From Citrus sinensis (Eukaryota; Streptophyta; Magnoliopsida; Sapindales; Rutaceae), in the NCBI RefSeq assembly GCF_022201045.2, contig NC_068564.1, positions 25,015,001 through 25,079,000 on the forward strand: a stretch of DNA of 64,000 bases, written 5' to 3'. The notes under the pieces were generated by a model, which saw only the letters and a list, made by a program, of their open reading frames with translations, did no database searches and had not been told where the DNA came from. This document shows positions 1,181 through 30,170 of this stretch, piece by piece. The position numbers were made by a program, and so were the translations under genes. Position 1 is the first letter of the stretch. Each line of letters begins with the position of its first letter.

Positions 1181-3891
1181 AAAAAAAAAAAAAAAAAAAA
1201 GATGTCAATTCCTGTGACAACTTTTGTCTTTTCTCTTATGTAACCCACCTTTAGCTTTTACTAATTATAGTTAATAAGTAGGTCTCTGTTTTTTGCATTT
1301 TGCCTTTCTTTTCTTTGTCTCTTCAAATATTTGAAGTTGCTTGGTAGAATTTGTAAAGATGAAAAATTCTGGGAATCATATCCTCTAATCAAATCTGACT
1401 TTCTCCTGCATAATTATCCCTTTTGTTTTTTTTAGCTGGATTTTTGTTCTCTTATATCAATTGGATTAGACGGTAAAGTTTACAAACTAATTGAAATGTT
1501 TGAAACCAAATCAAATTTTGAAACAATTCATTAGTTTTGAGCTGACTTTGCGGACTGTGACCCGGGGAATTTTATAATTAAAAGGCCGAAAAAAGCCTCT
1601 CTTCACGGGCCAATAATGTGCCTCATACAGACAAAAGTTTTCTTCACTTTTTTTTTTTATCAGATTTTTTTTAATCTTTCTTGGTAACATAAAAATATTT
1701 TCATTCATACGTTTACTATTAAATTTACTTTATTTATTTTACGCGGGAATCGTGGGCCAGAGCTGGGCCCTCCGGATTACTGCATGGGTTGCTGAGCGGA
1801 CCCACGCGGTCACAAGGGTCCGGGCTAATCATGTTGTTGTTACATTTTTGTTGCTTTGCTTATTACTTTATTAGTGTGCTTTGGCAATTTCACAAATAAT
1901 ATATTATCCCTCCATTTTGATATATCTTTACACTAATTGGGTTATGGAATCAGGGCAAGTTCAAGAATATAAACAATCTCTGGTAGGTAGGATTGATGCT
2001 TTTCTTATATTTTATTTAGGGTGTTTTTAATTTTTCTTTTCATTAGTGATAACCTTTTTTTGATTCATTTAAAATGTAATTTCGATCCATCTAAGAGTCA
2101 AACGGTTCCATTTAAGTTTTTTTTTTAAATGATTTTGATGGACGGTTCTTTTATGTGTGTACTAGAAATTTGACTCAATAAATTAGTTGACTCTTATTCA
2201 AGATTAGATGAAATTAAATTTAAACTACTTCAATTTAATAGGTGACTCATTTTTTTTTTCTCAAAATAACACCTCTTATGAATTTGTACAAGACAAAATA
2301 AAAGAATACTAATTTGCATTTTAATTTTTCATTTTGAATAGGGAAACTTCTGTCGGACCTCTCGGCAGGCCGCCTTTTTTGTCGTTTCGTCTTTATTGCT
2401 TAGTAAAATGTCGGGTTCCGATGTCAGTTTCAAATAGCTGTGGACAAGTCCAAAGCTCGCACGCGCGCGCACACACCGAAATCTGATTAAGGATTCTGAT
2501 TTTTTATTAGAATTTAAAAAATTATTAAATTATATGATTTAGTATTATAATGATAATAATATTATATTATTAAATTATGTGGTTTAATAATTTTTATTTT
2601 ACACACAGTTTAATAATTTTTAAAAACTTTAACAAATTCAAGATTGTAGATTAGAGAACACACGCAAACGTAGGTGTGTATATAAGAATGAATAAATAAA
2701 TAAACTTTAAAAAAAAAATGCGAAGAAAAAAGGCGTCCTTGTTGTTTGCATTTGACTGGTGCTGTTAAGTTTAGAAGGACCACCTAATTATCTAACATTA
2801 TTGGGTATAAATGTATAATCGGATCGGTTGAATTAATAATTAAATAAAATTTAGATTACTAAAGTCGGGTGACAGAACAGAACAGTTCATCTACCGGGAA
2901 GGTCGTCTCAAGTTTTCAATTCATATTTCTAACTAATATAAAGATTATTATTATTATTATTATTTTTTGGCATTTCAAAACAGAAAAAAAAAAAATTGTT
3001 TAGGTAAACTTTTACATATTTTATTAATGGTATAATTAGTTGGAATCATTGTCCCAGCGGCTGGCAGTGGGCGGTAAAGAGGCTTGCCTACGTCTAATTT
3101 GGGCTCGAGTTTAAACAGTTGAACCCCAAATTTAGGTATGGGCTGTGTTTAGAGTTTTTACGTACTATTTACGAGTACAAAGAACGATGCATTTCGACCT
3201 AAGAATTTATTCTAGCGTACTGATATTTGACCATCAAATTATCTTGCAAGCCCTTTTTTTTAATTTATCTTATTACTTTTCATAATTATTTGTATTGAAC
3301 AATAAAAAAAATTTAGTTTATTTTATTCACGCTCTACCTCCTTCTCTCTCTAATAGTAATTAACAAAGTGAGGGCTAATAAGATAAATTGAAAGAGTAAA
3401 ATATCATTGTTCCATATTTTATTAGATCTCCTTTCAACATGAACGGACATCATTTACTTTCGCTTGATGAGTTATTAAAAATCTCATTGAGTCAGTTGGA
3501 TTAAAATTAGATCTAATCACTCTTCAAATAAAGAGTAAGATAATCATGTTGGCTTGGTCTGATAACAGAATGACATCTAGTGTTATTTATCCTATCAATT
3601 TTGCTTTTGCTTCCCCGCTCCGTCACTATGAAACTATGAATTTTGATTTGTTAGAGAAGCACCGCAAAGATCCAATTTTCACCATTCTATACTAGTTATA
3701 TCAACACTACTAAAGATCCCAAAATTTGAAGTTTAACTTAGTCTTAACTGACATGTCAGTCAACTAGGGTGAGCATCAACCTACTCAACCCATGAAACCG
3801 ACCCAAGCCGCATGATTTTTTGCTGTTTGATTTGGGTTGGTAAAATATATGGGTTGGGCTGAAAATTTTTAACCCAACCTTCACACACGCA
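1181..3891. other. AT-rich intergenic DNA
   Basis: I see no gene here. A 20-base A run follows the DUF538 stop codon. There is a short GC-rich patch at about 1741-1830, an alternating CG/CA run near 2459-2476 and an ATT microsatellite near 2945-2965. A sequence starting near 3766 (TAGGGTGAGCATC followed by many AACCC/GGGTT words) looks like the decayed end of an older hAT-type element, into which the element at 3892 may have inserted. Confidence 0.6.
3167..3298. repeat. Dispersed repeat, copy 1 (partner at 11187-11298)
   Basis: About 110 bases here recur at 11187-11298 in the same orientation. Both contain GATGCATTTCGACC, then TAGCGTACTGATATTTGACC and ATCAAATTATCTTGCA, and both close on CTTTTCATAATTAT. 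The second copy lacks about 18 bases of T-rich sequence. Neither copy codes for anything recognisable. This is probably a fragment of an unidentified repeat family. Confidence 0.7.
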
Positions 3892-4927: not shown

Positions 4928-5647
4928 CATACACACAAAATTGATAATTTATATAAAAATTAAAAAAAAACAAAATATAAATATAGAAGGATAAGAAAGT
5001 CTCTCACAACTGTCGAAACTTTGTCAATTATAGTAACCCTAACGCAAATTCATTTTGAATTGCAGCCCAGCCGCAAAGGTTCTTATTTTTGTTTTGAAAC
5101 AAATTGGTCAACTTTATTGTTAAGAATTGAATTGGATTAAATTATTAGGTGCTCTATAATATTTTTTTATGAAATAAATTGGTAAATTTTTGGTTGTGAA
5201 GGTGTCAAGAACAATTTCACCAAACCGAATCTTCAAATTTCACATTATATTTCATCTCAAATCATTATCAATTCCACGACAGTCATGGGGATTTAAAAAA
5301 GTAGGTGACGTGAAACTGGGTTCTTTCGTGTTGGCCATTTAGATGCATGTTTTCCATGCTTAGATTATTAGTTTTTGACTAGAGGAAGGGATTTCGGGAC
5401 CAATATTCTGCAATTTTCACATAAAATAGGAGGAAAAAGAAATCGTGATTGATATTTCTTTTTCGTCCTATTGAAACAAGTTTTGCTAATATTTATATGA
5501 ATTGAGTTATTTGGTGTGAATTTTTTTTAATGAAAAAACTATGGATAATTTTGGAATTTTTAAGAGTGTGTTGAGTAAATATTTAATTTTTAAATTAAAC
5601 AAACGGGCGTTTCAAGTAAAATGGTGTTCAACACCCGCCCTTTGGGG
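4928..5647. other. Intergenic DNA between two hAT elements
   Basis: This is AT-rich sequence with no open reading frame of note and no recognisable RNA gene. It may include the distal part of the older hAT relic that begins near 3766, but I cannot find its other end. Confidence 0.5.
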
Positions 5648-8740: not shown

Positions 8741-9841
8741 AATTAACTAATGGATCCCCTAAGTTGCAGCTCACTCGCGTAAGTTACAGCTCACTCGCGT
8801 AAGTTACACCTGTCCTGTATAATTTTATGTAGCCCCCTATACTCTATATTATTTATACTTTATTTATACGTATTATAAATTTTTTTGCATTGTAAACTTT
8901 CATTTAGCCCTTACACTCTATTTTATTTCATTAAAACCTTTAGAGTATCAATTCACCACCCCCTATAATTTTAAATTCCCAAAATACCCTCAATTTAATT
9001 AAAAAATATAATTATTGTTAAATGATTTATAATTATAATAATTATTTTATTATAACTATAAATATAATTATAATTTTTAAATAGATTATTATTGTTGTTG
9101 TTGTTGTTATTATTATTATTATTATTAACAAGAATAAAAATTATGATAAAAATTAATTAAAGATTATATAGTAATTTGTTACAATTTAACTCATTTTGAT
9201 TTTGATTCTAAGACAAAGTAAATACATAAATGGTAATACATCTCATTATAATTACGATTTTTGTAGTTCAAGTAAATAAATTATTCTGATTCCAATTCTT
9301 CATTTCGATTATAGCTATTCTGATTTTAACTCATTATATTTCTAACTAATTTCGATTCCTGTTTAGTGAACACACTATAAAATTGTAAACCATTCTATAT
9401 TCAATTAGACCACTCTATATTATTTACAATTTATTCATAAGTATTATGAGTTTTATAGTGCATTCACTAAACATGAATCAAAATTAGCTGGAAACATGAA
9501 TCAAAATTAGAATCGGAATAGCTATAATCAAAATAAGGAATTGGAATTAGAATAATTTATTTACTTAAACTGCATGAATCGTAATTAGAATGAGCTGTAT
9601 TACCATTTATGTGTTTATTTTGTCTTAGAATCAAAATCAGAATGAATTAAATTGTAACAAATTACTATATAATCTTTAATTAGTTTTTATCATAATTATT
9701 ATTTTGTATTTTAATTATTGTTATTATTCAAAAATTAATTATTAATAATAATTATCATTAATTATTATTATTAACAATTTAACGAAAAAATTATTATTAA
9801 TTATTTTTATAAATTAATTAATTATAATACTTTTTATTCTT

Positions 9842-9883
<42 letters not shown>

Positions 9884-10134
9884 TTATTTAATAATTATTA
9901 TATGTTTTAATTAAATGGATCGTATTTTGGGAATTTAAAATTATAGGGGGTGAATTGGTACTTTAAGGGTTTCAATGAAATAAAATAAAGTGCAAGGGAC
10001 AAAACAAAATTTTATAATACAGAACGTTCTATAATACTTATTAAAAAATATTAAATAACATAGGAATTGAATAAAATTTTATAGGACAGTTGTAACTTAC
10101 ATTAGCTGTAACTAAGGCAGACCATTAATTAATT
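8741..10134. mobile_element. 1.4 kb fold-back (long inverted repeat) element
   Basis: The two halves are imperfect reverse complements. Left features in order are AATTAACTAATGG, TAAGTTACACCTGTCC, CCCTATAATTTTAAATTCCC, a run of ATT triplets (about 9090-9125) and GTTTAGTGAA (9361). Their complements appear in mirrored order on the right: TTCACTAAAC (9463), AAT triplets (9845-9885), GGGAATTTAAAATTATAGGG, GGACAGTTGTAACTTAC and CCATTAATTAATT. The loop is about 9384-9449. There is no open reading frame of note. This looks like a non-autonomous fold-back transposon or two inverted MITE copies. I found no convincing target duplication. Confidence 0.8.
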
Positions 10135-10437: not shown

Positions 10438-10714
10438 TATGATTTTGATCCAATGATTTAAGGGCACGGCTACGATACATGCATGTATGTGATACATGCA
10501 AGCAATAAAAAAATAGAAAAAAACATAGCAATTGTTTAGCTGCCACAAACATTAAAAAATAATAATAACCGGGAACAACCGGTTGCTCTTTAACGTAATT
10601 AAATAATAATAAATATTATTATATTTAAATAAAACAAATGTAATAATAATAAAATAATAACTATTTTAGTATTATTTTAGGTCACATAATAATACAAAAT
10701 TAGTTATAATAACA
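10438..10714. other. Palindromic motifs, possible element terminus
   Basis: ATACATGCATGTAT (10475-10488) is a perfect 14-base palindrome. It is followed at about 10567-10586 by AACCGGGAACAACCGGTTGC, then AT-rich DNA. The order palindrome, AACCGG block, AT-rich tract mirrors the terminus at 21001-21190 in inverted orientation. It may mark the left end of the large MULE-like block. Confidence 0.35.
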
Positions 10715-11185
10715 AAAAATAGTTCCAAATTTAATAATGTTAATTTCAAAATCAATGGTAGCAGTTCCACATTTATTGGTGCAATATTGGTAAGATTTTG
10801 ATGGTTGCAAGTTAATAATCCAATGTTTCATATTTATTAACCTAAGTTTCAAGTTGCGTTGGAATCAACTTTAATGGTCATTGTTTCAAAATTAATGGTA
10901 GGTGTTTGATATTTGTTGTCCACAACATGAAAAGCTCTAAAGGTTGCAAGTTAATGATTACATGTTTCATGTATATTGGCCTAAGTTTCAATTTAATTTG
11001 GTTCCAAATTTAATGATCCTAATTTCAAGAATAATGGTAGTTGTTTCAAATTTATTGGTCCATATTTTACATAACCATCAGGTTTGCACGTTAATAATCC
11101 AATGTTTCATATCTATTGACCAAAGTTTCAAGTTGCTTTGGCTTTAAGTTTAATGGTTCATGTTTTAAAATTAATGGTAGATGTC
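10715..11185. repeat. Tandem array, ~139-bp period, about 3.3 copies
   Basis: The landmark GGTTGCAAGTTAAT (or a close variant) occurs at 10803, 10942 and 11081, and each is followed by CAATGTTTCAT-like and AAGTTTCAA-like words at the same spacing. The units are diverged. The array lies between a palindromic motif and the Ulp1-like gene and may be subterminal repeats of the surrounding element. Confidence 0.75.
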
Positions 11186-11186
11186 G

Positions 11187-11298
11187 ATTTACAAGTACGA
11201 AAAATGATGCATTTCGACCCAAGATTTTATTTTAGCGTACTGATATTTGACCATCAAATTATCTTGCACGCCTTTACTTTTCATAATTATCCGTACTG
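11187..11298. repeat. Dispersed repeat, copy 2 (partner at 3167-3298)
   Basis: See copy 1: it shares the blocks GATGCATTTCGACC, TAGCGTACTGATATTTGACC and CTTTTCATAATTAT. This copy abuts the 139-bp tandem array and lies just upstream of the Ulp1-like gene. Confidence 0.7.
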
Positions 11299-11329
11299 AT
11301 ATTTAAACCCTACAACCTTCAGCATCGTA

Positions 11330-14206
11330 ATGGGGATCAAAGATGGAGGGGAACCAGTATACATCCGAGAAGAAGCGGGTGGTATAATTGAACTGCGTGC
11401 CAAGTATAGAACAGGTGGAAGAGGAATTGAAATAGCCGCAGTTACTGAAAGACTGATAGCTAGTGAGAGTAGTGATGATGACTTTAAGATCATGTTTTCT
11501 TTGTTTGTTTTAGGAACTGTATTGTGTCCCACAAGTGTCAGCTACATTAATCCGATGTATCTGCATGCCCTAAAAGATGTGCAGTTAATTAGGAAAAAAA
11601 ATTGGGCTACATGGTGCTTCAACTTTCTGTGGGAGGGCATAGCGAAGTATAAAGATCATCAAGTGAAGTCAGTTAGTACTTGTGTTTTGTTTTTAGAGGT
11701 ATATTTAAGAAATCTTAGATGCCATAATTAATTTGCCAAATATGAAAAATAAAATGACGTACGTAGTAATTATTTTTTGAATGAACAGTTGTTCTACTTT
11801 AGTGTTGTTTTGTATGATCGATGTTCCATGGACAGAACAGTTTGCCTTGTTAGTGTATAGACCAAGGAAGAGATTCAGCGATTATTGAATTGGCGGAAAA
11901 AGTTTGGGGACATGACAAGTACTGAGCTTTGTTTTATTTTTTGTCTTGTTCACACATGTATTTAATTTTGTTTACGATTAATTGAATATATTTTGATTGT
12001 CATTATGTATGATTGTTATGCATATTTATTTTAGGTTCCAAATGCGTGAATTAAATTTTCTGCAGCTCGAAAGAAATTTCCCTCATTTTGAACAAACCAA
12101 AGATGCTGGGCCGAGCACTGTTAATATGGAGGAAGCTTTTAGGGTGCTAACACAGTGTGTCCAAAGAATTGAACACAAAATGGATTCGTTCAATGTGAGA
12201 ATGGAAATGGTTGAGAAGTCTTTGGAGGAATTGAGATCCAAGTCTCCGGTTGGTGCACCATCAAAACAACCATATGATCCATGCCCGCCATCTCCGAGCT
12301 TGAAAATAGTAGAACCAACATGTCCAGTCAAAAAAACCGAGCCAACCACTGATGGAAAAAACAAAATGGTAATGGATAGCGATGAGGACTCTGTGGATCG
12401 CAGATTGAACCTGAGCCTCGATAAAATAATGGGCTGGATGGGGAAAAGAGAAGGAATCGGTGAATTTCGCAAAGATCCTACCCACTTTGTCCTTATTCCA
12501 CCACCTAATTCCGAGATGAGGTACAGTTTTATAACGTCGTTTTCTAAAAATTATTTTGATGATAACTCACTTATGAAGTAATTTACATATAATTTTTTTT
12601 TATGAAATATATAGACGAACCAGTTCAACTTAAGCAAGAACTTCAAACATTTACTAGTGTCAGTGTCCTGCCAACGCCACCAAGTAGGAATCGTAGGCCA
12701 GGCCGATATCAACTTTCACCATACGATCAAGTGTCGAGGGGAGCAAATCCCAAGTATAAAGCTGGTCCGTTTCAAGTCAATGATCCAGTTACGCTGGAAG
12801 AATTGAAGCTTATTCAATATGCTTTTAACAAAGAGGCTGACGGAAGGTAAAATTCAGAAGACTGAAATTAGTTTTCTGTATATAGTTGTTATGCTATACG
12901 ACTAAAAAATTACCGTGTTTTATCTTTAGTGAAATCATTGTTTCTAGCTATGGCGAAATTCTTAATCGGCATTCTTTATTGACTCTTTTGCCGGGGCTTA
13001 TCTATGTGGAGAGGTATTATGTTTCAACATTTGGTGATGTCACAATATATGTTTGTCCTTTATTATATGTTATTATATATCTCAATCAATATGATCACTT
13101 TTAGGTGATTTCTATGAAAGCGCATCACCTCACCCTCATTCAGTAGGTGGTGGAGAAAGATGTGCCAATGAACTGGTATTTACCAACAAGATATTCTGTG
13201 AGTCTCGCCGGTACTTGTTGCATTGTGTTTTGGTTTCTTTATTGACAACTTCCTTATGCAACGTTGTCTTTATCATGTGTAGCAAGCAGTTCTAATGGTC
13301 GGAGATGAGGTGGATTGTTTTGCAAGGGCAGCTAGATGTGGAAAGAATTTTATGCAACAAGTGCATAGGTGTCAAAAGGTTAGTTTCTTAACCTTTTACT
13401 TATTTCAGTTTATACTAGTGTGCTTGGTGTATGACATTGACAATTGAAATGTTAGATTTATGTGCCAATAAACGATGAATCATCTCATTGGTACCTACTG
13501 ATCGTGAATGTCAGCAATACAAGTGCAGAAATATGGGATCCTCTTCCAGATCCCCGCAATAATAGAAGACGGTGCGTATTGTATCTTAATCATGTTCTTT
13601 GTTTTCATGATCTATTTAACATTATCAGTTATGCATATTGTGTTATATTCATATCCATAATATTGTCTGGTTTTCGACATTGCCGACAGCTACATTCCTT
13701 GGATTGGATTCTGCCGCCCCAATTGCCAAGCAATATGCAACGCGTGAAGTTCCAAGACTTTCCAATCAACCGGGGCATTGGAGTTCCAAAGCAAAGGAAT
13801 GGATATGACTGTGGGGTTTATGTGATAAATTTTATGGACAGCCCAGAATTTATTCCGAAGAAATCGTCAACTTTGGTACGACTATGCCAAACTTGTTTAA
13901 TGGTTGAACTTAAAATTTTGTTAACTTCATAATTATATGAAAGCTACTAATTATATGTAAGTAATATTAGTTTCCTTTCAAATTGACCAGTACACATATG
14001 AGGATACACAGGGTAGGCTAGCCATTCAACTAATTAATTCTGCATTGAATCAAAATCGAGATAAATTGCTGGAACTAAGCAACGCACAGTTTGCAATTCA
14101 TGCTGTAATGGTGAACCCTGTATCCTCTCAAGTGCAAAAGCCATTTCATCAACAAAGCGGCAACATTCGTAAGAAGAAGAAAGTTAACACGAGAACGCAT
14201 GCTTAG
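11330..14206 (+). pseudogene. Transposon-borne Ulp1-like (C48) cysteine protease gene, probably decayed
   Basis: This is a multi-exon gene of the type carried by some plant MULEs. The first exon (11330 to about 11670) has LFVLGTVLCPTS and NWATWCFNFLWEGI, as in plant Ulp1-like transposon proteins. Middle segments (about 12035-12519 and 12614-12848) encode a charged linker with a short coiled-coil-like stretch. The catalytic part lies at 13456-13875, split by an intron near 13573-13686. His is in SSHWYLLIV, Asp in EIWDPLP, Gln in PKQRNGYDCG and the nucleophile Cys in the same DCG motif. The last exon starts at about 13991 and ends at TAG 14204-14206. Ulp1 proteases cleave SUMO or similar tags. 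The exon near 13104-13200 reads into a stop in the expected frame, so the gene is probably inactive or spliced differently from my reading. Confidence 0.72.
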
Positions 14207-14722
14207 ATATCCAACCATACTAGGGAATGATTATGCAAGTGATTGCATACTATTTTTTGTTGTAAGCTTTTTGAAACGTGTTGGGAGGTCATACCGTGAC
14301 TTTTTTTTGTCTTCTTGCTTACGATGGTTGTAAAATCAATTTTAATGGAGAATTATCTTTAAATTTATGACATGGTTATGCATTCTCGGCCGAGACATTA
14401 TTTAACTATAATGAACATATGCATGTTAACAGTGTTCACATCTCATCATTTGATATTGAACTGGTTGTCATGTTGGTACATGATAATAGAATTCAAATGG
14501 TAATACATATTGACTCATTTTAATGGCGCTGTTTAATGAGGCCACCAATAAAAAACATTAGAAAATTGGTTGCTTACATGACCTAACAATGTTAGATTGA
14601 CAGCAGCAAAGGCTCCAGGATTCTGGGTGCTTGATGAATCGAATACGACAAAACAGTTTCTATCGACACTAAAATCAATACCATGAAAGTTATTTGCAAT
14701 GAAATATCCAACAATGCAATAA

Positions 14723-16921
14723 TTAAACACATGATAAAGAACTTTGGACATACCTTAGTTGGGTGCAATCATTCCCTTGAATAGGACAAGTTCGTGCTGT
14801 ATGCCCAACTTGACGATATTTTCCACACTTTCTAGAGCTTTCTGCTACACATTTTGCTTTAGACATAGCGCCCTTGGTCTTTACAACTGCAGGATTACAA
14901 AGTTTTATTCCCATCCGCAATTTTTTATTTGGGAGACCGTCTCGTTCAGATTGTTATTCATAAGTTAATGTTAGCCGATTGATTTCTACCAACGCATTTT
15001 CATAGTCTTCAACGTTTTTTGCTGCATTGTAGCACATTTTATTGCAAGCTGCAGACAATGCACTAAATCTAGCTGCCTCTGAAACATTGGTGTCAACTTC
15101 TGGTTTTGTGGTCTTGCAAGTATTATGCTCCTTGGCTTTTTTTGTCTATCTATGAAGAACCATATTGTCAGGAATCTTTTCAATTTGTTCCACTTTCAAG
15201 ACATGAAACATATGCCTACAAGGAAGCCTAACGGACTCCATCATTTGACAAGAACACTGTATGTGGTTTTCTTGTAGATTATGGATGGCATTCCAACATG
15301 TTGTTGGTGTCCCAAATTCAGTCACTGTGTACAAAGCTGCATCGACAGCTTTGACAGTTTTTACTTCGATGACCGCTCCTTCTCGCAGCATCTCATCTCT
15401 AACCTTCGAAAAAACTCTTAATGAGAACAATTGTGCAGCATGTTTCTCTAGGCTCTGTAAGTGCGTTCTTAAGACAAGAGTACTGTATTTGGTTTTGAAC
15501 TCATCGGATGTTTCTGTGGTACGAATATTGCGGAGAGCATGATCGATTTTTCGCACAAACTCATACAATTTTAGTTTATGTTGGACAAATCGGCTAAGAT
15601 ATGCATTCATACTTTTACATCGTCGAGTGCTTCGCATAGTAACAAAGAATGTTCCTCTAAGATAAGCTTCCGCCTAGTTGCACCGCTTCGAATACATTTT
15701 CTATACCCATGCATGATGTTCAAGTGCGAATTCAGCCACTACAGCTAACCATTGGGTTTCAAATTCAGCTGCTGTCATAGATGTCAACATCAAATCATGA
15801 AATTTTCTCGTAAAGTCTTCGTTCTTAAAATTAGCCTGCGCATTGCGCCCGAGATGCCAACAACAAAGACTATGGATGCACCCGGTAAACACTGTCTTTA
15901 TTGCCTTTGACATTGCCTTGTCACCATCAGTAATTACAGGCACGGACTTTCGGTTACCCATAGTGGATAGGAAAGTTTATAGTAGCCACGTGTATAAGTC
16001 AATTGTCTTATCTGCGAGCAAAGCAAAACCGAAGACCGTTGTTCTGAAGTGATGGTTTGTTCCGACAAGTGTAACGAGGGGTTTATGATATGCATTAGTC
16101 TTATACGTTGCATCGAATGCCAACACATCACCAAAACATTGATAGTCATAACGAGCTACACAATCAGCCCAAAATAAATTTTGTAGTATATTTTCATCAT
16201 CTAGTGTGTACTCAAAGCAAAGCCTAGGGTCATGTTCAGATTTTGCCGCAAAGTATGCTATAGTTATGTCTGAATCAGAATCTCCAACCTCGGCACGAGT
16301 GGAAGCATTTAACGTGTTTTGCATGTCTTTGCGTGTGAACCTTAGGTTTTGAGGCCCCTCTACCTGATCAGCCATGTAATCCATGAATTGACAAGTCTTC
16401 ACACCAACATGCCTTAATGTCTTTGCTTGCCCAAGTTCTGCATCAGTAACCTTTCGATGTGAACGAATGAGATGAACTTCATTATTAGAAGCCAAATGAT
16501 GGTTGTGCTCAGGCCTGAATTCTTTGGCGATGTATTTACCAACTGATTCATCGTAATTCACTCGAAATGATGCCCGACACCCGGTTCGTGTTATAAGTCG
16601 TGGTTCTCGCACCCTACTGCAATTTTGAGATTGTCTTTCATCTCTTACTCCTTCGAAATGACAAACCCAACGTCGAATTGTGATTCGTCCAGATTTTTTT
16701 CCGCGCCGCATATTATCTTTCCTAACACCAAAACCAATCATTCGGGCATAATTATTATACCACAGTTGTGCATCCTCTACTGAGTTAAAATGTCTGTCAA
16801 GTACGTCCGATGCCTGTAAACCAACCTTTGGAGCAATGGATATTCCTAGGTTGCTGGAACTATGTGAGCTACTCATATTTAACCCCTGTTCAGCCAAAAC
16901 TTTGTTAATAACATAATTCAC
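14723..16921 (-). pseudogene. FAR1-type MULE transposase with five in-frame stops
   Basis: A single minus-strand frame runs from the ATG at 16921 to about 14723. In order it holds a FAR1 DNA-binding domain (FNSVEDAQLWYNNYA onward, with Cys and His ligands ending at EHNHHL), a MULE transposase core (DVLAFDATYKTN with the first catalytic Asp, VITDGDKAMSKAI with the second), a SWIM zinc finger (CSCQMMESVRLPCRHM) and a CCHC knuckle (CGKYRQVGHTARTC). Stops interrupt it at 15977-15979, 15701-15703, 15674-15676, 15146-15148 and 14954-14956. I see no frameshift. By comparison with the family, the stops replace Trp or Gln codons. This class is the ancestor type of the domesticated FHY3/FAR1 regulators. 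The gene converges on the Ulp1-like gene, leaving about 500 bp between their ends. Confidence 0.9.
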
Positions 16922-17323
16922 ACCCTTTATCTTAATAATTTAATATAATAATAAATATGAAACTAACTATGGGAGCACAAATGTACTACTTAAATTACAG
17001 CACATACCTTTGTTAGAGAGAAACTTGACTTATGAAAAGTTGAAAACTAGGCACCAGAGATGTTCAACGAGATTTTAGAATATAGCATTTGGGACTATGT
17101 TTTGGAGTGATTGTGTTTTTTGGGAAGAAGTCTTGGACATGAGCCTTAGGATAATCCCTCATTAATGGAGGGAATGTGAGTTTTGTTTTCATTATATTTA
17201 TTGCAAACCTAACCAACCAAACATGGTAATTTTACCTTTATTTTTTTTAACTTTATGCGAGTTGAAGCATGCTCGAACTAATCGGCTTACCAGAATTCAC
17301 AACCGGAAGACCGGATTCGAGTG
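16922..17323. other. Upstream region of the MULE transposase
   Basis: This is non-coding DNA between the transposase start and the 61-bp palindromic array. It should hold the minus-strand transposase promoter and leader, but I can name no convincing TATA box. If the block is two elements, the junction is probably here. Confidence 0.4.
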
Positions 17324-17570
17324 ACATGCTTGCTGTCAACAACCGGATAACCGGTTGTGAAATCCAGTTATCCGGATTCGAGGGACATGCTTGCTGTCAA
17401 CAACCGGATAACTGGTTGTGAAATCCGGTTATCCGGATTCGAGAGACATGCTTGCTGTCAACATCTGGATAACCGATTAAGAAATCCGGTTATTCGGATT
17501 CGAGGGACATGCTTGCTGTGCACAACCGGATAACCGGTTATGAAATCCGGTTATCTGGATTCATCTTACA
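17324..17570. repeat. Tandem array of four 61-bp palindromic units
   Basis: ACATGCTTGCTGT begins at 17324, 17385, 17446 and 17507, an exact 61-bp period. Each unit contains CCGGATAACCGG and, nine bases on, CCGGTTATCCGG (with point changes in some copies), so each unit can fold into a hairpin with a 12-bp stem. More diverged AACCGG/CCGGTT blocks continue to about 17695. The array lies directly upstream of the promoter for the gag-like gene. Confidence 0.9.
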
Positions 17571-17708
17571 TGTAAACCGAATTCAACCGGCTTACTGGAT
17601 GAAACCGGATAGCCGGTTATTCAAATCGAAAATTCAGATTCGTGTGGCTAGGTCATTGCCCACAACTGGTTAGCCGGTTAGGAATTTCCGGATAGCCGAA
17701 TTCGCGAG

Positions 17709-17716
17709 TATATATA
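17709..17716 (+). promoter_or_regulatory. TATA box for the gag-like transposon gene
   Basis: TATATATA is followed by a pyrimidine-rich leader (CTCTCTCGTTTTCTCTCC type sequence, 17765-18060) and the ATG at 18071. The spacing fits a plant Pol II promoter with a leader of about 330 bases. Confidence 0.55.
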
Positions 17717-18070
17717 CTGTTCATCTCCTCCTTTATCTTTCGATAAACTGGTTAGATTTCTTTCTCTAAAACCAATTATTCCTCTCTCGTTTTCTCTCCA
17801 AAATCCATCATTTTCACATGCTTTTTATGCAAATGGATCCATGAAACTTGTTTCCCATCCGTTCTTGTATCCAAAATCATCCTTTAAACCCTTTTTCAAC
17901 CTCAAAATCAATAGATCCGAAATCGATTCTAGGGTTTAAACCGAAACTTCTCTCTCTAGATTTCTCCCTCTGAAGCCGTTTTTGATCGAAATTGCTTCTC
18001 AAAATCTCTTTCCATCCTTATTATCTCCATTCTCATTGATTTATTTCACTTCAAATCAAACAAACTCACC

Positions 18071-19332
18071 ATGTCAAGCTCACGGCTGGTTCAAAGAAAA
18101 GGCAAAGAATCAGTTCAACATACCAACCGGTCACGACAAGTAGGGGGCACCTCCAATCAATCCAACTTTGAGGCCACACACTTTCAGAACCACAAACATC
18201 TAGCCAAACGATTTCACCAACAGTTCATGACTTTTGAGGTACTCCAAACCTTTTATGTTTACCGGATTGGTTGAATAATCTTAGTATTAGCAATAGAACT
18301 TTATTACAATTGTTGGAAGATGTTGGTTGGCTTAATGCAATTGTCTTTGAGGAAAATGTATATCCCGACTTGGTGAAAGTGTTTTACTCGAATATAGATT
18401 GTTCTGCGGAGAAAGAAAATAGAGTAATCACCACAATTGGAGGAGTTTCGATTGAGTTTGATGATTCAGAGTTGAACTCTATCCTAGGAAATTCCGATGA
18501 TGGCCTAGAAATTTTTTCACCTAGGAAACCTCCTGATATTGATGACTATGTTCATATTGATGATGTTAAGAATATATGTCGTCGTATTGACCTTTCAGAT
18601 GATGATTGTACTATCCATTTTCGCACCCAATGTCTTTATCTTCAAACTCGGATATTACTTTGTTTTATTTAGAGTATTGTGCTTCCTAGATCTGGCCATT
18701 TGGATGAGGTTTTTCATATGGATGTTGCCTTAATTGATTGTATTCTTAGACATCGTCCAGTCGACTTAGGATACACAATTGTCCGAAACATGCTTAGTAT
18801 ACCTAAGTTGATTACTCGTTCCCTTTCGTATGGTCATTTCATCACCCGAATCCTCAAATACTTTAGCATCCCTATCAAAGAACCATCATGTAGGCCATCT
18901 AAGAGCATTGGGGATGAGGCTGTTAGTTCTTTAGGTTTTGAGTGTCGTAATGGCACTTTGGTGAAAGTCACTGATAATAAGTTCACATTTCTTACTCCAA
19001 GTGATGATCGGCCACTTAATGCTGTGGTTCCAGCCCATCAGCTACCTGTTTTTTCGCTTTTATTTCGGGGTCAGCATAGACGTCGAGCTCATTCAGTATC
19101 TCCCTCAGCTCCTGCAGCCTCTGCACCTGCTTTACCACATCCTGAGCCTCCTACTTCTGAAGAAGTTACTTTTCAGCAGCTTATGGATGAGGTGAGGACA
19201 CTCTCTGTGTCGCAGACTGAGTTTCACTAGCAGCAACAGCAGCTTATTCATGGACAACGCCTCCTCTTTGAGCACTTCGACATTCCATATCCATATCCAC
19301 CTCCATCACCACCATTCTCACCACCTCAGTAG
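18071..19332 (+). pseudogene. Gag-like 'putative plant transposon protein' ORF, broken
   Basis: The frame begins at the ATG at 18071 and shifts near 18250-18270, after which LNNLSISNRTLLQLLEDVGW continues. It reads through DLVKVFYSNID and IGGVSIEFDDSELNSILG, which resemble the plant family labelled putative plant transposon protein. A TAG at 18670-18672 interrupts it just before LPRSGHLDEVFHMDVALIDC, which belongs to the same domain. A second TAG at 19228-19230 precedes a Gln-rich and Pro-rich tail (QQQQL, then YPYPPPSPPFSPP) ending at 19332. The length without breaks is about 420 residues. The protein has no protease, reverse transcriptase or transposase domain. Its role in mobility is unknown to me; it resembles a nucleic-acid-binding capsid-like protein only loosely. 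Confidence 0.65.
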
Positions 19333-19717
19333 GCTCTTATGCTTGTATTTGGACACACCTACATTTCATTATGATTTTGGATTATGTATTTGTTTTGAAT
19401 AATATGGATTTGTTTTGATTGTTTGATATTTCATGGATAATATGTTATTTCCGTTTGCTTTGGATATTTTTGGACTAATGTGCTGTATTGAGATTCAGAT
19501 TTGGACCTATTTAAAAATATTAAAATGTTTTGGGTCATTCTATAATTTCTCATATTTTGGATCATATCTTAATTTCAGAAAGTTTTGGGTTTAATAAAGT
19601 AATAATTACAAATTCTGAAATTGGACCTATTTGAAAATTTTTATAACGTTTTGGGTTATAACATAGTAAAAATACAGTTTTGAGGTCAAATTGTATTTTT
19701 AAAACATAATTCATTGT

Positions 19718-20815
19718 AACACTTCACGTGGAATATACAACTTATCACGTAAAGTTGGCAACATGGACATCAAATATGAAACGGGTGAGAATATTTGAGA
19801 ATTTTGGCTTTATCCAAAACATGCAACATCGTACGTCAAACATGAAATCCTACCGTAAGACATGCAACAACTGACGTTAAACATGAAACTTGCAACTCTT
19901 CACGTGAAATATACGACTTATCACGTTAAGTTCGCAACATGGACGTCAAACATGAAACGGACGAGAATATTCGAGAATTTTGGCTTCATCCAAAACATGC
20001 AACATCATACATCAAACATGAAATCCTACCGCCAGACATGTAATAACTGACGTTAAACATGAAACTTGCAACACTTCACGTGAAATATATGACTTATCAC
20101 GTCAAGTTTGCAACATGGACGTCAAACATGAAACGATCGAGAATATTCTTTATTTTGGCTTTATTCAAGACATGCAACCTCTAACGTTAAACATGCAACC
20201 GTTACGTCTGACATGCAATCATTACATCTGACATGCAACAACTAACGTTAAACATGAAACTTGCAACACTTCACACGAAATATGCAACTTATCACGTAAA
20301 GTTCGTAACTTCAACCTCAAACATGAAACGGGCGAGAATATTCCAGAATATTCTTTATTTTGGCTTTATTCAACACATGCAACATCTTACGTCAAACATG
20401 ATATCCAATCGTCGAATATGCAACAACTGACTTTAAACATGAAACTTGCAACACTTCATGCGAAATATGCAACTTATCACGTAAAGTTCGCAACTTCGAC
20501 GTGAAATATGAAACAGACGAGAATATTCTGGAATATTCTTTATTTTGGCTTTATTCAACACATGCAACATCTTACGTCAAACATGAAATCCAACCGTCGA
20601 ATATGCAACAACTGACGTTAAACATGAAACTTGCAACATTTCACGCGAACTATGCAACTTATCACGTAAATTTCACAACTTCGACGTCAAATATGAAACA
20701 GACAAGAATATTCTGGAATATTCTTTATTTTGGTTTTATTTAACATATGCAACATCTTATATCAAAGATGCAATCGAGACGTCGGACATGCAACAACTGA
20801 CGTTAGACTTGAAAT
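19718..20815. repeat. Tandem array, ~185-bp period, six copies, ACGT-rich
   Basis: The landmark AAACTTGCAACACTTCAC (with variants) occurs at about 19886, 20061, 20256, 20441 and 20626, with a partial first copy near 19718. Each unit contains CACGTGAAATAT, TTATCACGTAAAGTT, GGACGTCAAACATG, GAGAATATTC and TGACGTTAAACATG. The spacing is 175-195 bp. Every unit is studded with ACGT cores and short ATGAAAC words. The peptides encoded by chance repeat with the array and are not a gene. It lies 3' of the gag-like ORF and 5' of the hairpin cluster, as subterminal repeats of a transposon would. Confidence 0.88.
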
Positions 20816-21004
20816 ACTATTTTTTTCATTTTCAATTTCTGTATTTTTTGCCATTTTATTTAATTATATTATATTGTATTATAGGGTTTCTATTATATTA
20901 TTTAATTTCTTTATCTTTTGCTATTAATTATATTATAAAAAATTATTTTTGACATTTTATTTATTTTTATATTGTATTTTTAATATATTTTTTTTAAAAA
21001 ATAT
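20816..21004. other. T-rich tract before hairpin cluster
   Basis: This is nearly pure A+T with long T runs. It separates the 185-bp array from the GC-rich hairpins. A similar T-rich tract lies at about 30180-30330 in front of the other hairpin terminus. Confidence 0.6.
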
Positions 21005-21190
21005 GGTGCAACCGGTTTATTAACCGGCTGCACCAACAGCCAGGCTCTCCTTTTGAGAGCCCGGCATGGTGCCGGGTACAATGCCAACGGCATTGTAGCC
21101 AAACCCGGCAAAGAATGATGAGCCTGGTGGTCAAAGAGAGGTTGACAAGGAGGGTCGGCTTGTAATACAGCTCTGTATGTCATGCAGCTG
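21005..21190. other. Run of adjacent hairpins (possible transposon terminus)
   Basis: Four palindromes follow one another almost without gaps. At 21005-21034, GGTGCAACCGGTT pairs with AACCGGCTGCACC. At 21043-21061, GGCTCTC pairs with GAGAGCC. At 21060-21076, CCCGGCA pairs with TGCCGGG. At 21077-21097, TACAATGCC pairs perfectly with GGCATTGTA. A further TACAG/CTGTA hairpin lies near 21166. GC-rich consecutive hairpins stand out sharply in this AT-rich setting. There is no open reading frame. Confidence 0.8.
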
Positions 21191-21882
21191 CCTTTATTAT
21201 TTTTTATTATTGCAGATGTAACCGACCATCGATATCAATTATGAAACAGGTAAATATTAAAGGTAATTATCATACAGCTACCCTCATTTCAAATAAATAT
21301 CAAAATAATCAGTTCAAAGTAGAACACTACCAAAGAACCCCTCAATTTAACTTGAAAATACACTACTTTCTTTTTTTTTTTCTCCGAATAACATGAAAAC
21401 ACACGTAAAATATATGAGACTTCTATACTAATTAGAATAATATTTAAATATAAATTAATAAATTGACCAATTAATTTTTAATATTACATTATAAAGTTAA
21501 GAATGTTTTACATAAAAAAAATTATCATAATATTTTATCAATTTTTAGATAATACAATGTAGTATAAATATTTAGACCTATAATATTTCTATATTAGACA
21601 AGTATAAAAAATCTAATGTTTGATATTTTTAAATAATACTAAAAAAAAATCTCTTGTGTAAATTAATTCATAGAAATTAATGTGAAATTAATTACTTTAT
21701 TCATTATATTATGTATTACTTTTATGATTTTATTTATTCACTATTTTTAAGTCACAATAATTTCTACAAATACTTGTAATGGACAATTAAGTACGTGTTG
21801 TTAATTTTTAATCTATTTTTATTAGTGTTATTGTGATTAATGATATCATAATTCATACACTAAGCCTTTTTCCTTTTTTAAT
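21191..21882. other. AT-rich intergenic DNA
   Basis: I see no gene, RNA or clear repeat here. Confidence 0.5.
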
Positions 21883-27539: not shown

Positions 27540-30170
27540 AACTTGGAACATTAGCCAAAATATTGGAATACACTTAAAAGAGTAAGAATATGTAACAAAA
27601 AAATCTTGAAAATAAAGATGAAATTGATTAAAAGAAAGTAGGAATACAAAAAATAAACTTGAAACATTTAATCAAAATATTGGAATTCAATACAAAGAAT
27701 GGGAATATAGAACCAAAAAATGGTGGAAAAATGAGTAGAAGAGCAGAACTTAAAAGTTGGAATAACTTGATAAGAGTTTGATAAATTCCAATGAAAAGTA
27801 GAGATCTGAAAGATAAACTTGAAACATTCACCTAAATGTTGGAATTCAATAAAAAGAGTATGAATATAGTATCATGGAAAAAAGAGTTGAAGAGGTTAAC
27901 ATAATAGTTGGAACAACTTACAAAGAATTTGATGAGTTCCAATGAGAAGTAGAGATCTTAAAAGCGAACTTGAAATATTAACCCAAAATATTGGAATTTA
28001 GTATAAAAAAAGCAGGAATATATAACCAAATTGTGGTGGTAATAATAGTTGAAGAACTTAACCCAAAAGTTCTAAGTATATACCAATAATCTGATAAATT
28101 CCAACAATGAATAGAGATCTGAAAAATAAACTTGAAACATCCACATAAAATATTGAAATTCAATTAAAAGAGTAGGAATATAAAACCAATATATTATACG
28201 AAATGAGTGGAAGTGCTTAACACAGAGATTGAAACAACTTGACAAGAATTTAATAAATTCTAGTGAAAAGTAGAGAACTAAAAAATAAACTTGAAATAAT
28301 TACTCAAATATTGGAATTCAATAAAAAGAGTAGGAATATAGGACCAAAATTTGGTAAGAAAATAAGTTGAAAACGTTGACCCAAAAGTTGGAACAACTTA
28401 CAAAGAATTTGATAAATTTTAATGGAAAACAGAGATCTGAAAACAAAACTTGATATATTTACCCAAATGTTGGAATTCAATAAAAAGAATAGGAACATAG
28501 AACCAATAAATGGTGAAAAAAGAGTGGCAAAGCATAACCCAGAAGTTGGAACGACTTAACAAGAGTTTGATAAATTCCAATGAAAAATAGAGATCTAAAA
28601 AATAAACTTGAAATATTCACCCAGATGTTGGAATTCAATAAAAAGAGTAGAAATATCGAACCAAAATTTGATGGGAATAAAAGTTGAAGAGGTTAACCAA
28701 AGGTTGGAAGAACTGACAAAGAATTTGATAAATTTTAACGAAAAGTAGAGATCTAAAAAATGAACTTGATATATTTACCAAAAATATTGGAATTCAATAA
28801 AAAGAATAGAAATATAATACCAAAAAATGGTGGAAACAATAATTGAAGAGTTTAACCCAAAAGTTATAAGTACTTACCAATAACTTGATAAACTTCAACA
28901 ATAAATAGGATTAAAAAAATGAACTTAAAACATCTATATAAAATATTGGAATTCAATGAAAAGAGTAGGAATATAAAACCAAAAAGTGGTGGGAAAAAGA
29001 GTTGAAGAGTTTAACCTAAAACTCGGAAAGAATTACCAAAAATCTAATAAATCCAACAAGAAGTAGGGATAAAAAAATAAACTCGAAACATTCACAAAAA
29101 ATATTGGAATTAAGTAAAAAGAGTAGAAATATAGAACAAAAAAATGGTGGAAACAAGAGTTGAAGAGCATAACCTAAAAGTTTGAAGAAGTTAACAAGAA
29201 TATGATAAAGTTTAACAAGTTGTCGAGATCTAGAAAATGAACCTGAAATATCCAAGCAAAATGTTAGAATTCAATGAAAATAGTTGGAATATAGAACCAA
29301 AAAATGGTGAAAATAAGAGTGGAGGAAGTTAGCCCAAAAATTGAAATAACTTAACAATAATTTGATAAATTTAAACGTGAAGTAGGGATTTAAAAAGTAA
29401 ATTTGATACATTTACTCAAAATATTGGAATTCAATAAAAATAGTAGGAATATTGAACCAAAAGTAGTGAAAACTAAGTTGGAACAACTTAGCAATAATTA
29501 GATAAAGTCTAATAGAATATTGAGATTAAAAAATAAACTTGAAATATCAACATGAAAACTAGAAATATAATGAAAGAACTGGAAATATAGAACTAATAAC
29601 TAATGGAAAAATGAGTTGAAACAACTTACCAAAAATTTGATAAATTCCAACGAAAAGTAGGAATTTAGAAATTGAACTTGAAATTTCCAAACAAAATTTT
29701 GGAATTCAATAAAAAGAGTAGGAATATAGAACTAAAAAGTGGTAGGAACAAGAGTTGAAAAAATTAACCCAAAAGTTGAAATAATTTACCAAGAATTTAA
29801 TAAATTGAAATGAGAAGTAAGGATCTAAAAACTAAACTTGATATATTTACCCAAAATATTGAAATTTAATAAAAATAGTAGGAATATAGAACCAAAAAGT
29901 GGTAGAAAAATAAATCGGAATAATTTACCAAAAAATAGATAAAGTTTAATACATTACAGAGATATAAAAATAAACTTGAAATATACACCTAAAAAACTAG
30001 ATGTTAATGAAAAGAGTGGATATATGAAACCAAAAACTAGTGAGAAAACGAGTTGAAACAATGTACCAAAATTTAGATAAATAACCACGAAAAATAGGAA
30101 TTTGAAAAGCAAACTTGAAATATATATTATAAATATTGGAATGTAACAAAATAAGTAGGAATGTAATTAT
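27540..30170. repeat. Tandem array, 159-bp unit, about 18 copies
   Basis: The landmark TTGGAATTCAATAAAAAGAG (with variants) recurs at about 27562, 27681, 27840, 27992, 28153, 28312, 28471, 28629, 28788, 28947, 29105, 29265, 29425, 29559, 29700, 29860, 29999 and 30137. Most intervals are 158-160 bp; several late units are about 138 bp. Each unit also holds ATAAACTTGAAAC, AGGAATATAGAACCAAAAA, GTTGGAACAACTT and AAAGTAGAGATCT. The period is close to a nucleosome repeat and to common plant satellites. The array is purine-rich on the plus strand, so the minus strand shows spurious Phe/Leu-rich frames. A hairpin terminus follows at about 30334-30400. Confidence 0.93.

Follow-up and report, generated by a model that had tools for sequence, protein, structure and literature searches.

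Is a transposon-rich block in a 64,000-nucleotide stretch of Citrus sinensis chromosome C9 (NC_068564.1, positions 25,015,001 to 25,079,000; hereafter the window) a single mobile element, and what is a retroelement-type gene doing inside it? A first-pass annotation of the window had proposed that positions 10455 to 21190 form one giant Mutator-like element (MULE) with Ulp1 protease, transposase and gag-like genes between hairpin-rich ends, and had left two neighbouring elements as an option. Our analysis indicates, with a probability that we put at about 0.86, that the window holds a rearranged and decayed copy of an approximately 14-kb Mutator family with short degenerate ends, a FAR1/SWIM transposase, an opposed Ulp1 gene and a Sirevirus fragment. 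The part from 11302 to 21107 would be one mobile element, and the left end seen in the window would not be its own. The proposal holds in that Ulp1, transposase and a retro-type open reading frame (ORF) lie in one MULE; it fails at the left end, which is foreign, and in the bounds of the block.

The existence of a family carries this reading. DNA searches of the 299.7-Mb C. sinensis genome with separate pieces of the window matched the transposase at ten further loci with 91-95% identity. The Ulp1 region is present at all ten and the region of the retro-type ORF (Pfam family PF20167) at nine, in the order and orientation of the window; the right end is complete in eight copies, and the copies do not end near 17.0-17.3 kb, as they would if two elements had met there. 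In nine of the ten, homology to the window begins at 11302 (in the tenth, C9a, from 11917), and upstream of that point nine copies have parts of one common 5' region, which measures 2.14 kb in five copies, four of them 99.3% alike. The family's own left end opens with GGCTGATGCTACAATGCC and its right end is GGCATTGTAGCCAAACC(C); by reading of the end sequences, GCTACAATGCCG is common to both, inside the first 19 bases. Young copies are 13.7-14.5 kb long and 98.7-98.8% identical across 8.4 kb.

Target site duplications (TSDs) were examined in seven copies (C1p, C2p, C5a, C5b, C1m, C9b and C8c). Exact 9-bp duplications flank four of them (GTAGAAACA and TTAATGGAT in C1p and C2p, AAATTTTAT in both C5a and C5b); in C1m all seven readable bases match (CATAAAA), and C9b and C8c each match at 8/9, the latter when an offset of 13 bases from the end motif is allowed. 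C5a and C5b (L024/L023 and L026/L025; C5:25.88 and 25.81 Mb) lie 66 kb apart and have about 2.5 kb of left flank in common as well as the TSD, which points to segmental duplication rather than two insertions, so the four exact duplications count as three insertions; this pair is the only one whose upstream flanks, among those compared, match beyond the element. The first-pass annotation had also suggested looking for duplications outside the ends of the block. The 9-11 bp target duplication of a MULE is found at other full copies and not at the window copy: around 10461-21107, the best 9-mer match was 6/9, the commonest value in 2000 random pairs. This is a family with fixed ends that multiplies as a composite unit and makes 9-bp duplications.

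Matches to the family's own left end filled 58 rows (best 40 of 70 candidates scored) and those to the right end 40 rows among 72 candidates. By reading of these best-match lists, left and right ends pair on one strand in six long copies and in 12 further spans of 3.5-8.8 kb, presumably shorter derivatives of the family, and the other left-end rows have no partner among the right-end matches listed. The right boundary had been drawn at 21190; the element ends near 21107, and from near 21151 the sequence is a different repeat, 21151-21250 being the beginning of another family with many copies at 83-94%. Palindromes with AACCGG cores had been described at both ends of the block. The right end does have two CCGG-core palindromes with arms of at least 6, the left end has none and shows AACCGGTT there, and the 61-bp array inside the element has five.

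Both MULE genes are as the first-pass annotation described them, a Ulp1-like gene and a convergent FAR1-type MULE transposase, according to Pfam domains and strands; by reading, they converge near 14.2-14.7 kb. The Ulp1 catalytic domain (PF02902, + strand) scores 58.3 bits, and the gene contains DESSHWYL, AEIWDPL and QRNGYDCG, which we take to be the His, Asp and Gln-Cys motifs of C48 proteases. The MULE transposase domain PF10551 scores 42.4 bits (cutoff 27.6). Five in-frame stops interrupt the window transposase when it is projected on C2p; the 738-codon frame is open in the young copies C2p, C5a and C5b and broken in C1p. The selection test contrasts changes present in at least two of the ten copies with private changes of the old copies. 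For the transposase, shared changes were 33 synonymous and 37 nonsynonymous against 64 and 195 private ones (p=0.0006), with similar outcomes on tree-consistent sites (19/17, p=0.0012) and with C8c added (38/56 vs 86/232, p=0.015). The transposase has clearly evolved under purifying selection.

The supposed gag-like gene is a retro-type ORF on the + strand, as claimed, but not a gag. In the broken frames of the window, PF20167 scores 28.9 and 23 bits, below the Pfam cutoff of 45, and in an open copy 77.6 bits, above it; C2p, C5a and C5b have a single open stop-to-stop frame of 456 codons (419 from ATG), which is broken in C1p. A genome search with this ORF gave 195 candidate places, of which the best 40 were scored, all with at least 84% identity and 30 of them away from MULE copies. 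The retroelement source was characterised in two of these 30 solo matches, L043 and L044, to which the ORF in the window is 85.6-86.7% identical. In L044, the one locus with Pfam support for this order, SH3_retrovirus and RVT_2 (copia reverse transcriptase, 128 bits) precede the PF20167 ORF, and between RVT_2 and the ORF lies a stretch that by reading resembles copia RNase H, for which Pfam gave no hit. Polypurine boxes follow the ORF (five in L043, four in L044), and then comes a stretch of about 1.1 kb resembling a long terminal repeat (LTR), which starts with TGTTAGCC and has a poly-C run close to its end. The copia polymerase thus lies ahead of the ORF and the polypurine tracts and LTR come behind it, which is the place of the ENV-like gene in a Sirevirus; its position makes the ORF envelope-like and rules out a gag. 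A scan of L043 for repeated-motif (RM) palindromes found two. Among 43 PF20167 proteins, 19 also have PF07727, PF14223 or PF25597, which we take to be copia-type domains, and all 19 are Citrus gene models. An AlphaFold model of the 456-aa ORF from 15 sequences had a mean predicted local distance difference test score of 41.6, too poor for a fold search.

The Citrus Sirevirus has eight RM palindromes before ENV, with the consensus AATCCGGCTWRCCGGATT, five polypurine tracts after it and a 1.16-kb LTR (Bousios et al. 2010, PMC2829016). The corresponding sequence in the window is AATCCGGTTATCCGGATT near 17421, within a tandem array of 4.1 copies of 61 bp at 17311-17562. A sunflower Athila element has likewise been reported to have PF20167 in its extra 3' ORF (PMC11728184). 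The cassette of palindromes, PF20167 ORF and LTR scrap, which the MULE carries between its transposase and its right array, is by sequence a linker fragment of a Sirevirus (Ty1-copia); its palindrome cluster with the TATA-like box is a candidate for the promoter of that ORF.

Within MULE copies, similarity to the retroelement breaks off immediately ahead of the polypurine cluster (L043 4868 or its L044 equivalent), restarts inside the LTR (L043 5119-5132) and ends at 5426 or 5446; the polypurine boxes at L043 4877-5040 fall within the absent part. These internal edges are identical in eight of the nine other carriers (the window copy and C9b are further deleted there), so the cassette was likely captured once and trimmed by deletions afterwards. 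A nested insertion with a deletion, or a switch of repair template, may have brought the fragment in. A relative at 71% identity (L045) has the transposase and, within about 0.6 kb, an array with the same AAACATGAAAC motif, and has no cassette. As a separate observation, two MULE copies, L033/L034 (C8:17.76 Mb) and L037/L038 (C9:16.11 Mb), have LTR-type pieces of this retroelement close to their 5' part, and in C9b such pieces sit where the homology of its Ulp1 gene is interrupted.

The left end in the window has a different origin. Window 10455-10720 has 45 genome matches including itself (best 40 of 51 candidates scored), the best other one at 81%, and in the ten family copies the sole match to this region is a 130-base AT-rich stretch of C1p (72%). 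The first-pass annotation had asked whether copies of 10455-10720 and of 20990-21190 flank similar units; this holds for the right stretch, and the left one comes from a different MULE family. At seven loci of this foreign family, the leading alignments to the window stop at 11134-11184, that is, at the array end. One of the seven, at C9:10668503-10675840, is a complete element of 7.3 kb with the TSD TATTTTGAT, whose other end has an inverted CCGTTGGATTC palindrome in common with the main family's left end (alignment score 66); two longer loci have no long ORF of the kind found in the Ulp1/PF20167 element. In the genome search, nothing matched the filler at 11185-11301 besides window 3167-3269, and no second copy of the junction at 11186-11330 turned up. 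We read the left end seen here as the array side, in inverted orientation, of a related MULE family, attached via about 0.1 kb of local filler; most simply, a deletion or end joining with that filler swapped the 5' 2.14 kb of the element for it. The left terminus is lost, as are about 420 bases by which the first Ulp1-gene frame of C2p extends further upstream than in the window, and with these parts removed the window copy is very probably immobile. The foreign-family locus L041 has, at 645-997, a 125-bp hairpin array of its own (CAGCTAGCC...), again a cluster of palindromes next to a MULE array. Window 8782-10113, immediately left of the block, is an AT-rich, imperfect inverted repeat of 1.3 kb, 72% identical to its own reverse complement. 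The features of the block are collected in Table 1.

Table 1. Features of the element and of its left junction (window coordinates).
Feature	Position	Strand	Remarks
Array-side terminus of a different MULE family (GGGCACGGCTAC...)	10461..10721	-	Inverted relative to the main element
139-bp tandem array of the foreign terminus	10722..11184		TRF (10803-11184 within a longer array from 10722); GTTTCA-rich
Junction filler	11185..11301	+	11187-11291 is an 87% copy of window 3167-3269
Ulp1 (C48) gene, multi-exon, 5'-truncated by the rearrangement	11302..14206	+	Gene end and exon limits by reading
FAR1/MULE/SWIM transposase, decayed	14725..16939	-	PF03101, PF10551, PF04434; left limit projected from C2p
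CCGG-core palindrome cluster (61-bp units), then TATA-like TATATATA	17295..17722	+	Sirevirus-type RM cluster; TATA at 17706
Captured envelope-like ORF (PF20167), broken into three frames	18071..19333	+	End projected from C2p
Fragment of retroelement 3' LTR	19484..19724	+	Matches L043 5246-5446 and the L044 equivalent; polypurine-tract cluster lost before it
Right tandem array, 176-185 bp units	19714..20814		AAACATG/TGAAAC motifs
Genuine right terminus	21001..21107		CCGG-core palindromes, ending ...GGCATTGTAGCCAAACCC; complete in 8/10 copies, partial in C8a and C8c

Could the whole of 10461-21107 nevertheless be a legitimate mobile unit with two array-side ends, produced by an exchange of ends between MULE families and then transposed? 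Both ends of the block do show GGG..GGCTAC-type terminal motifs, AT-rich DNA and arrays, and a foreign array-side end (L003) aligns to the right end of C1p with a score of 31, above all 500 shuffles (maximum 24). Such likeness arises because both ends of the window block are array-side MULE ends, inverted to each other; aligned directly, they reach a score of only 20 (95th percentile of shuffles 19, maximum 29), so direct homology between them was rejected. With no 9-bp duplication around the block and a junction seen nowhere else in the genome, we consider such a unit very unlikely. That a Ulp1/transposase MULE merely stands beside an independent retroelement remnant is hardly credible. The retro half does occur alone, as the 30 scored places away from MULE copies attest, but the two loci examined are retroelement pieces with no MULE-type edges, and both halves recur in the same order at nine other loci, eight of them with the identical internal edges. 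The single-element interpretation of 11302-21107 is the one that we retain.

It is a further question whether selection keeps the envelope-like gene in the mobile lineage, under a palindromic promoter of its own, as a functional component of the DNA transposon. We hold this to be possible and rather doubtful; that the cassette is a passenger, captured once and never used by the MULE, with open frames that reflect the youth of the copies, has in our judgement a somewhat better than even chance. In favour of a working gene, the ORF is open in three of the four young copies, and its shared changes (21 synonymous/25 nonsynonymous) differ from the private ones (32/100, p=0.009), whereas five control frames gave no difference at 0.05 for either gene. 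Several observations weigh on the other side or complicate the history of the element. The ORF contrast weakens when CpG transitions are left out (12/21 vs 27/78, p=0.27), on tree-consistent sites (7/8, p=0.07) and for transversions (2/6 vs 9/29, p=1.0); the stem of the young clade has one synonymous and three nonsynonymous changes; and many shared sites of the ORF conflict with a tree, so that sites must have mutated repeatedly or copies must have exchanged sequence. As the initial p value is not robust to the stricter filters and these tree conflicts, we grade the constraint on the captured ORF as suggestive only. For the ORF, moreover, two of the five control frames have shared-change ratios (0.41 and 0.45) almost down to that of the true frame (0.36). 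All six older copies have 2-5 in-frame stops in the ORF, C8c lacks it and retains the leader together with the final 170 bases of the LTR, and none of the shorter derivatives appears among the best 40 scored matches to the ORF. The 3' end of the LTR that C8c keeps is missing in its sister copies, so at least two deletion stages are needed; a tree of the env segment from ten MULE and two retro copies has a star-like shape and leaves the retro pair unplaced (node support 0.289); and the window copy is incomplete, so the autonomy of the element has to be judged from other copies.

The three tandem arrays noted at first (139 bp at the left, 61 bp inside and 185 bp at the right) were all recovered by tandem-repeat analysis, the right one with units of 176-185 bp. 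Six arrays from three families have GTTTCA/TGAAAC at a density of 8.5-24 per kb, while genes, cassette, flank, a retro locus and the family's own 5' part have 0.5-1.1 per kb; GTTTCA reaches 17 per kb in the left array (10722..11184), compared with about 1 elsewhere. The VANC proteins of Arabidopsis are factors that strip methylation and bind short motifs within non-coding tandem arrays (PMC5735166), and VANC genes that bear Ulp1 have been named KIU (PMC13317346). By analogy with the VANDAL and Kaonashi elements of that plant, we infer that the GTTTCA-rich arrays may be targets of an anti-silencing protein from the Ulp1 gene. The palindrome cluster and TATA box may drive the captured ORF, and the cassette may supply a second expression unit. 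Another array in the window, 2.5 kb long at 27648-30162, has nested periods of about 159, 317 and 437 bases.

The role of envelope-like genes in plant retroelements is open, and the wall of plant cells casts doubt on a true envelope function (PMC7264820). A DNA transposon that multiplies with an envelope-like gene and a palindrome cluster is a natural experiment on that role. If the gene proved to be expressed and constrained in the MULE, its role there could not be virion entry: a cut-and-paste element has no particle, so a working envelope-like gene would act inside the cell or nucleus. Plant envelope-like proteins would then act, for example, on silencing or transcription rather than on cell entry. 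The family also documents that a retroelement gene, and not just host genes, can be captured by transposase-coding MULEs in a crop.

Among known systems, a MULE transposase with an opposed Ulp1 gene has been described for Kaonashi (KIU) and for plant Ulp1 MULEs (PMC13317346, PMC2528002). The present family resembles the Kaonashi non-TIR (terminal inverted repeat) MULEs of Arabidopsis and the Ulp1 MULEs of melon, rice and grapevine in its opposed Ulp1 gene and degenerate ends; unlike them, it adds a Sirevirus fragment, and the PMD/DUF1985 match in the first ORF of its Ulp1 gene is below the cutoff. With VANDAL (VANC) elements it has in common short motifs in tandem non-coding arrays (PMC5735166), although the orange motif is GTTTCA-like. 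CitMule of Citrus clementina likewise has FAR1, SWIM and MULE domains, 9-bp duplications and a degenerate TIR (PMC4334395); it is described as 6.8-6.9 kb long, much shorter than the young orange copies, and the term Ulp1 is absent from the main text of that paper. The source loci L043 and L044 match the Citrus Sirevirus linker in ENV-like ORF, polypurine boxes, poly-C and an end of about 1.1 kb that resembles an LTR, and L043, where they were scanned, also in RM palindromes (PMC2829016). The MULE cassette, by contrast, lacks gag-pol and the polypurine tracts and keeps only a minor part of the LTR. Like Pack-MULEs, the family is a MULE with captured foreign sequence. Unlike them, it carries a captured retroelement gene with its own palindrome cluster, in transposase-coding copies, in place of host-gene fragments. 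A literature search, mostly at the level of listings and with most subscription literature outside its reach, found no MULE with a retroelement or envelope-like gene. Unpublished as far as that search shows, this composite DNA transposon family is a new form of the Kaonashi-type Ulp1-bearing MULE.

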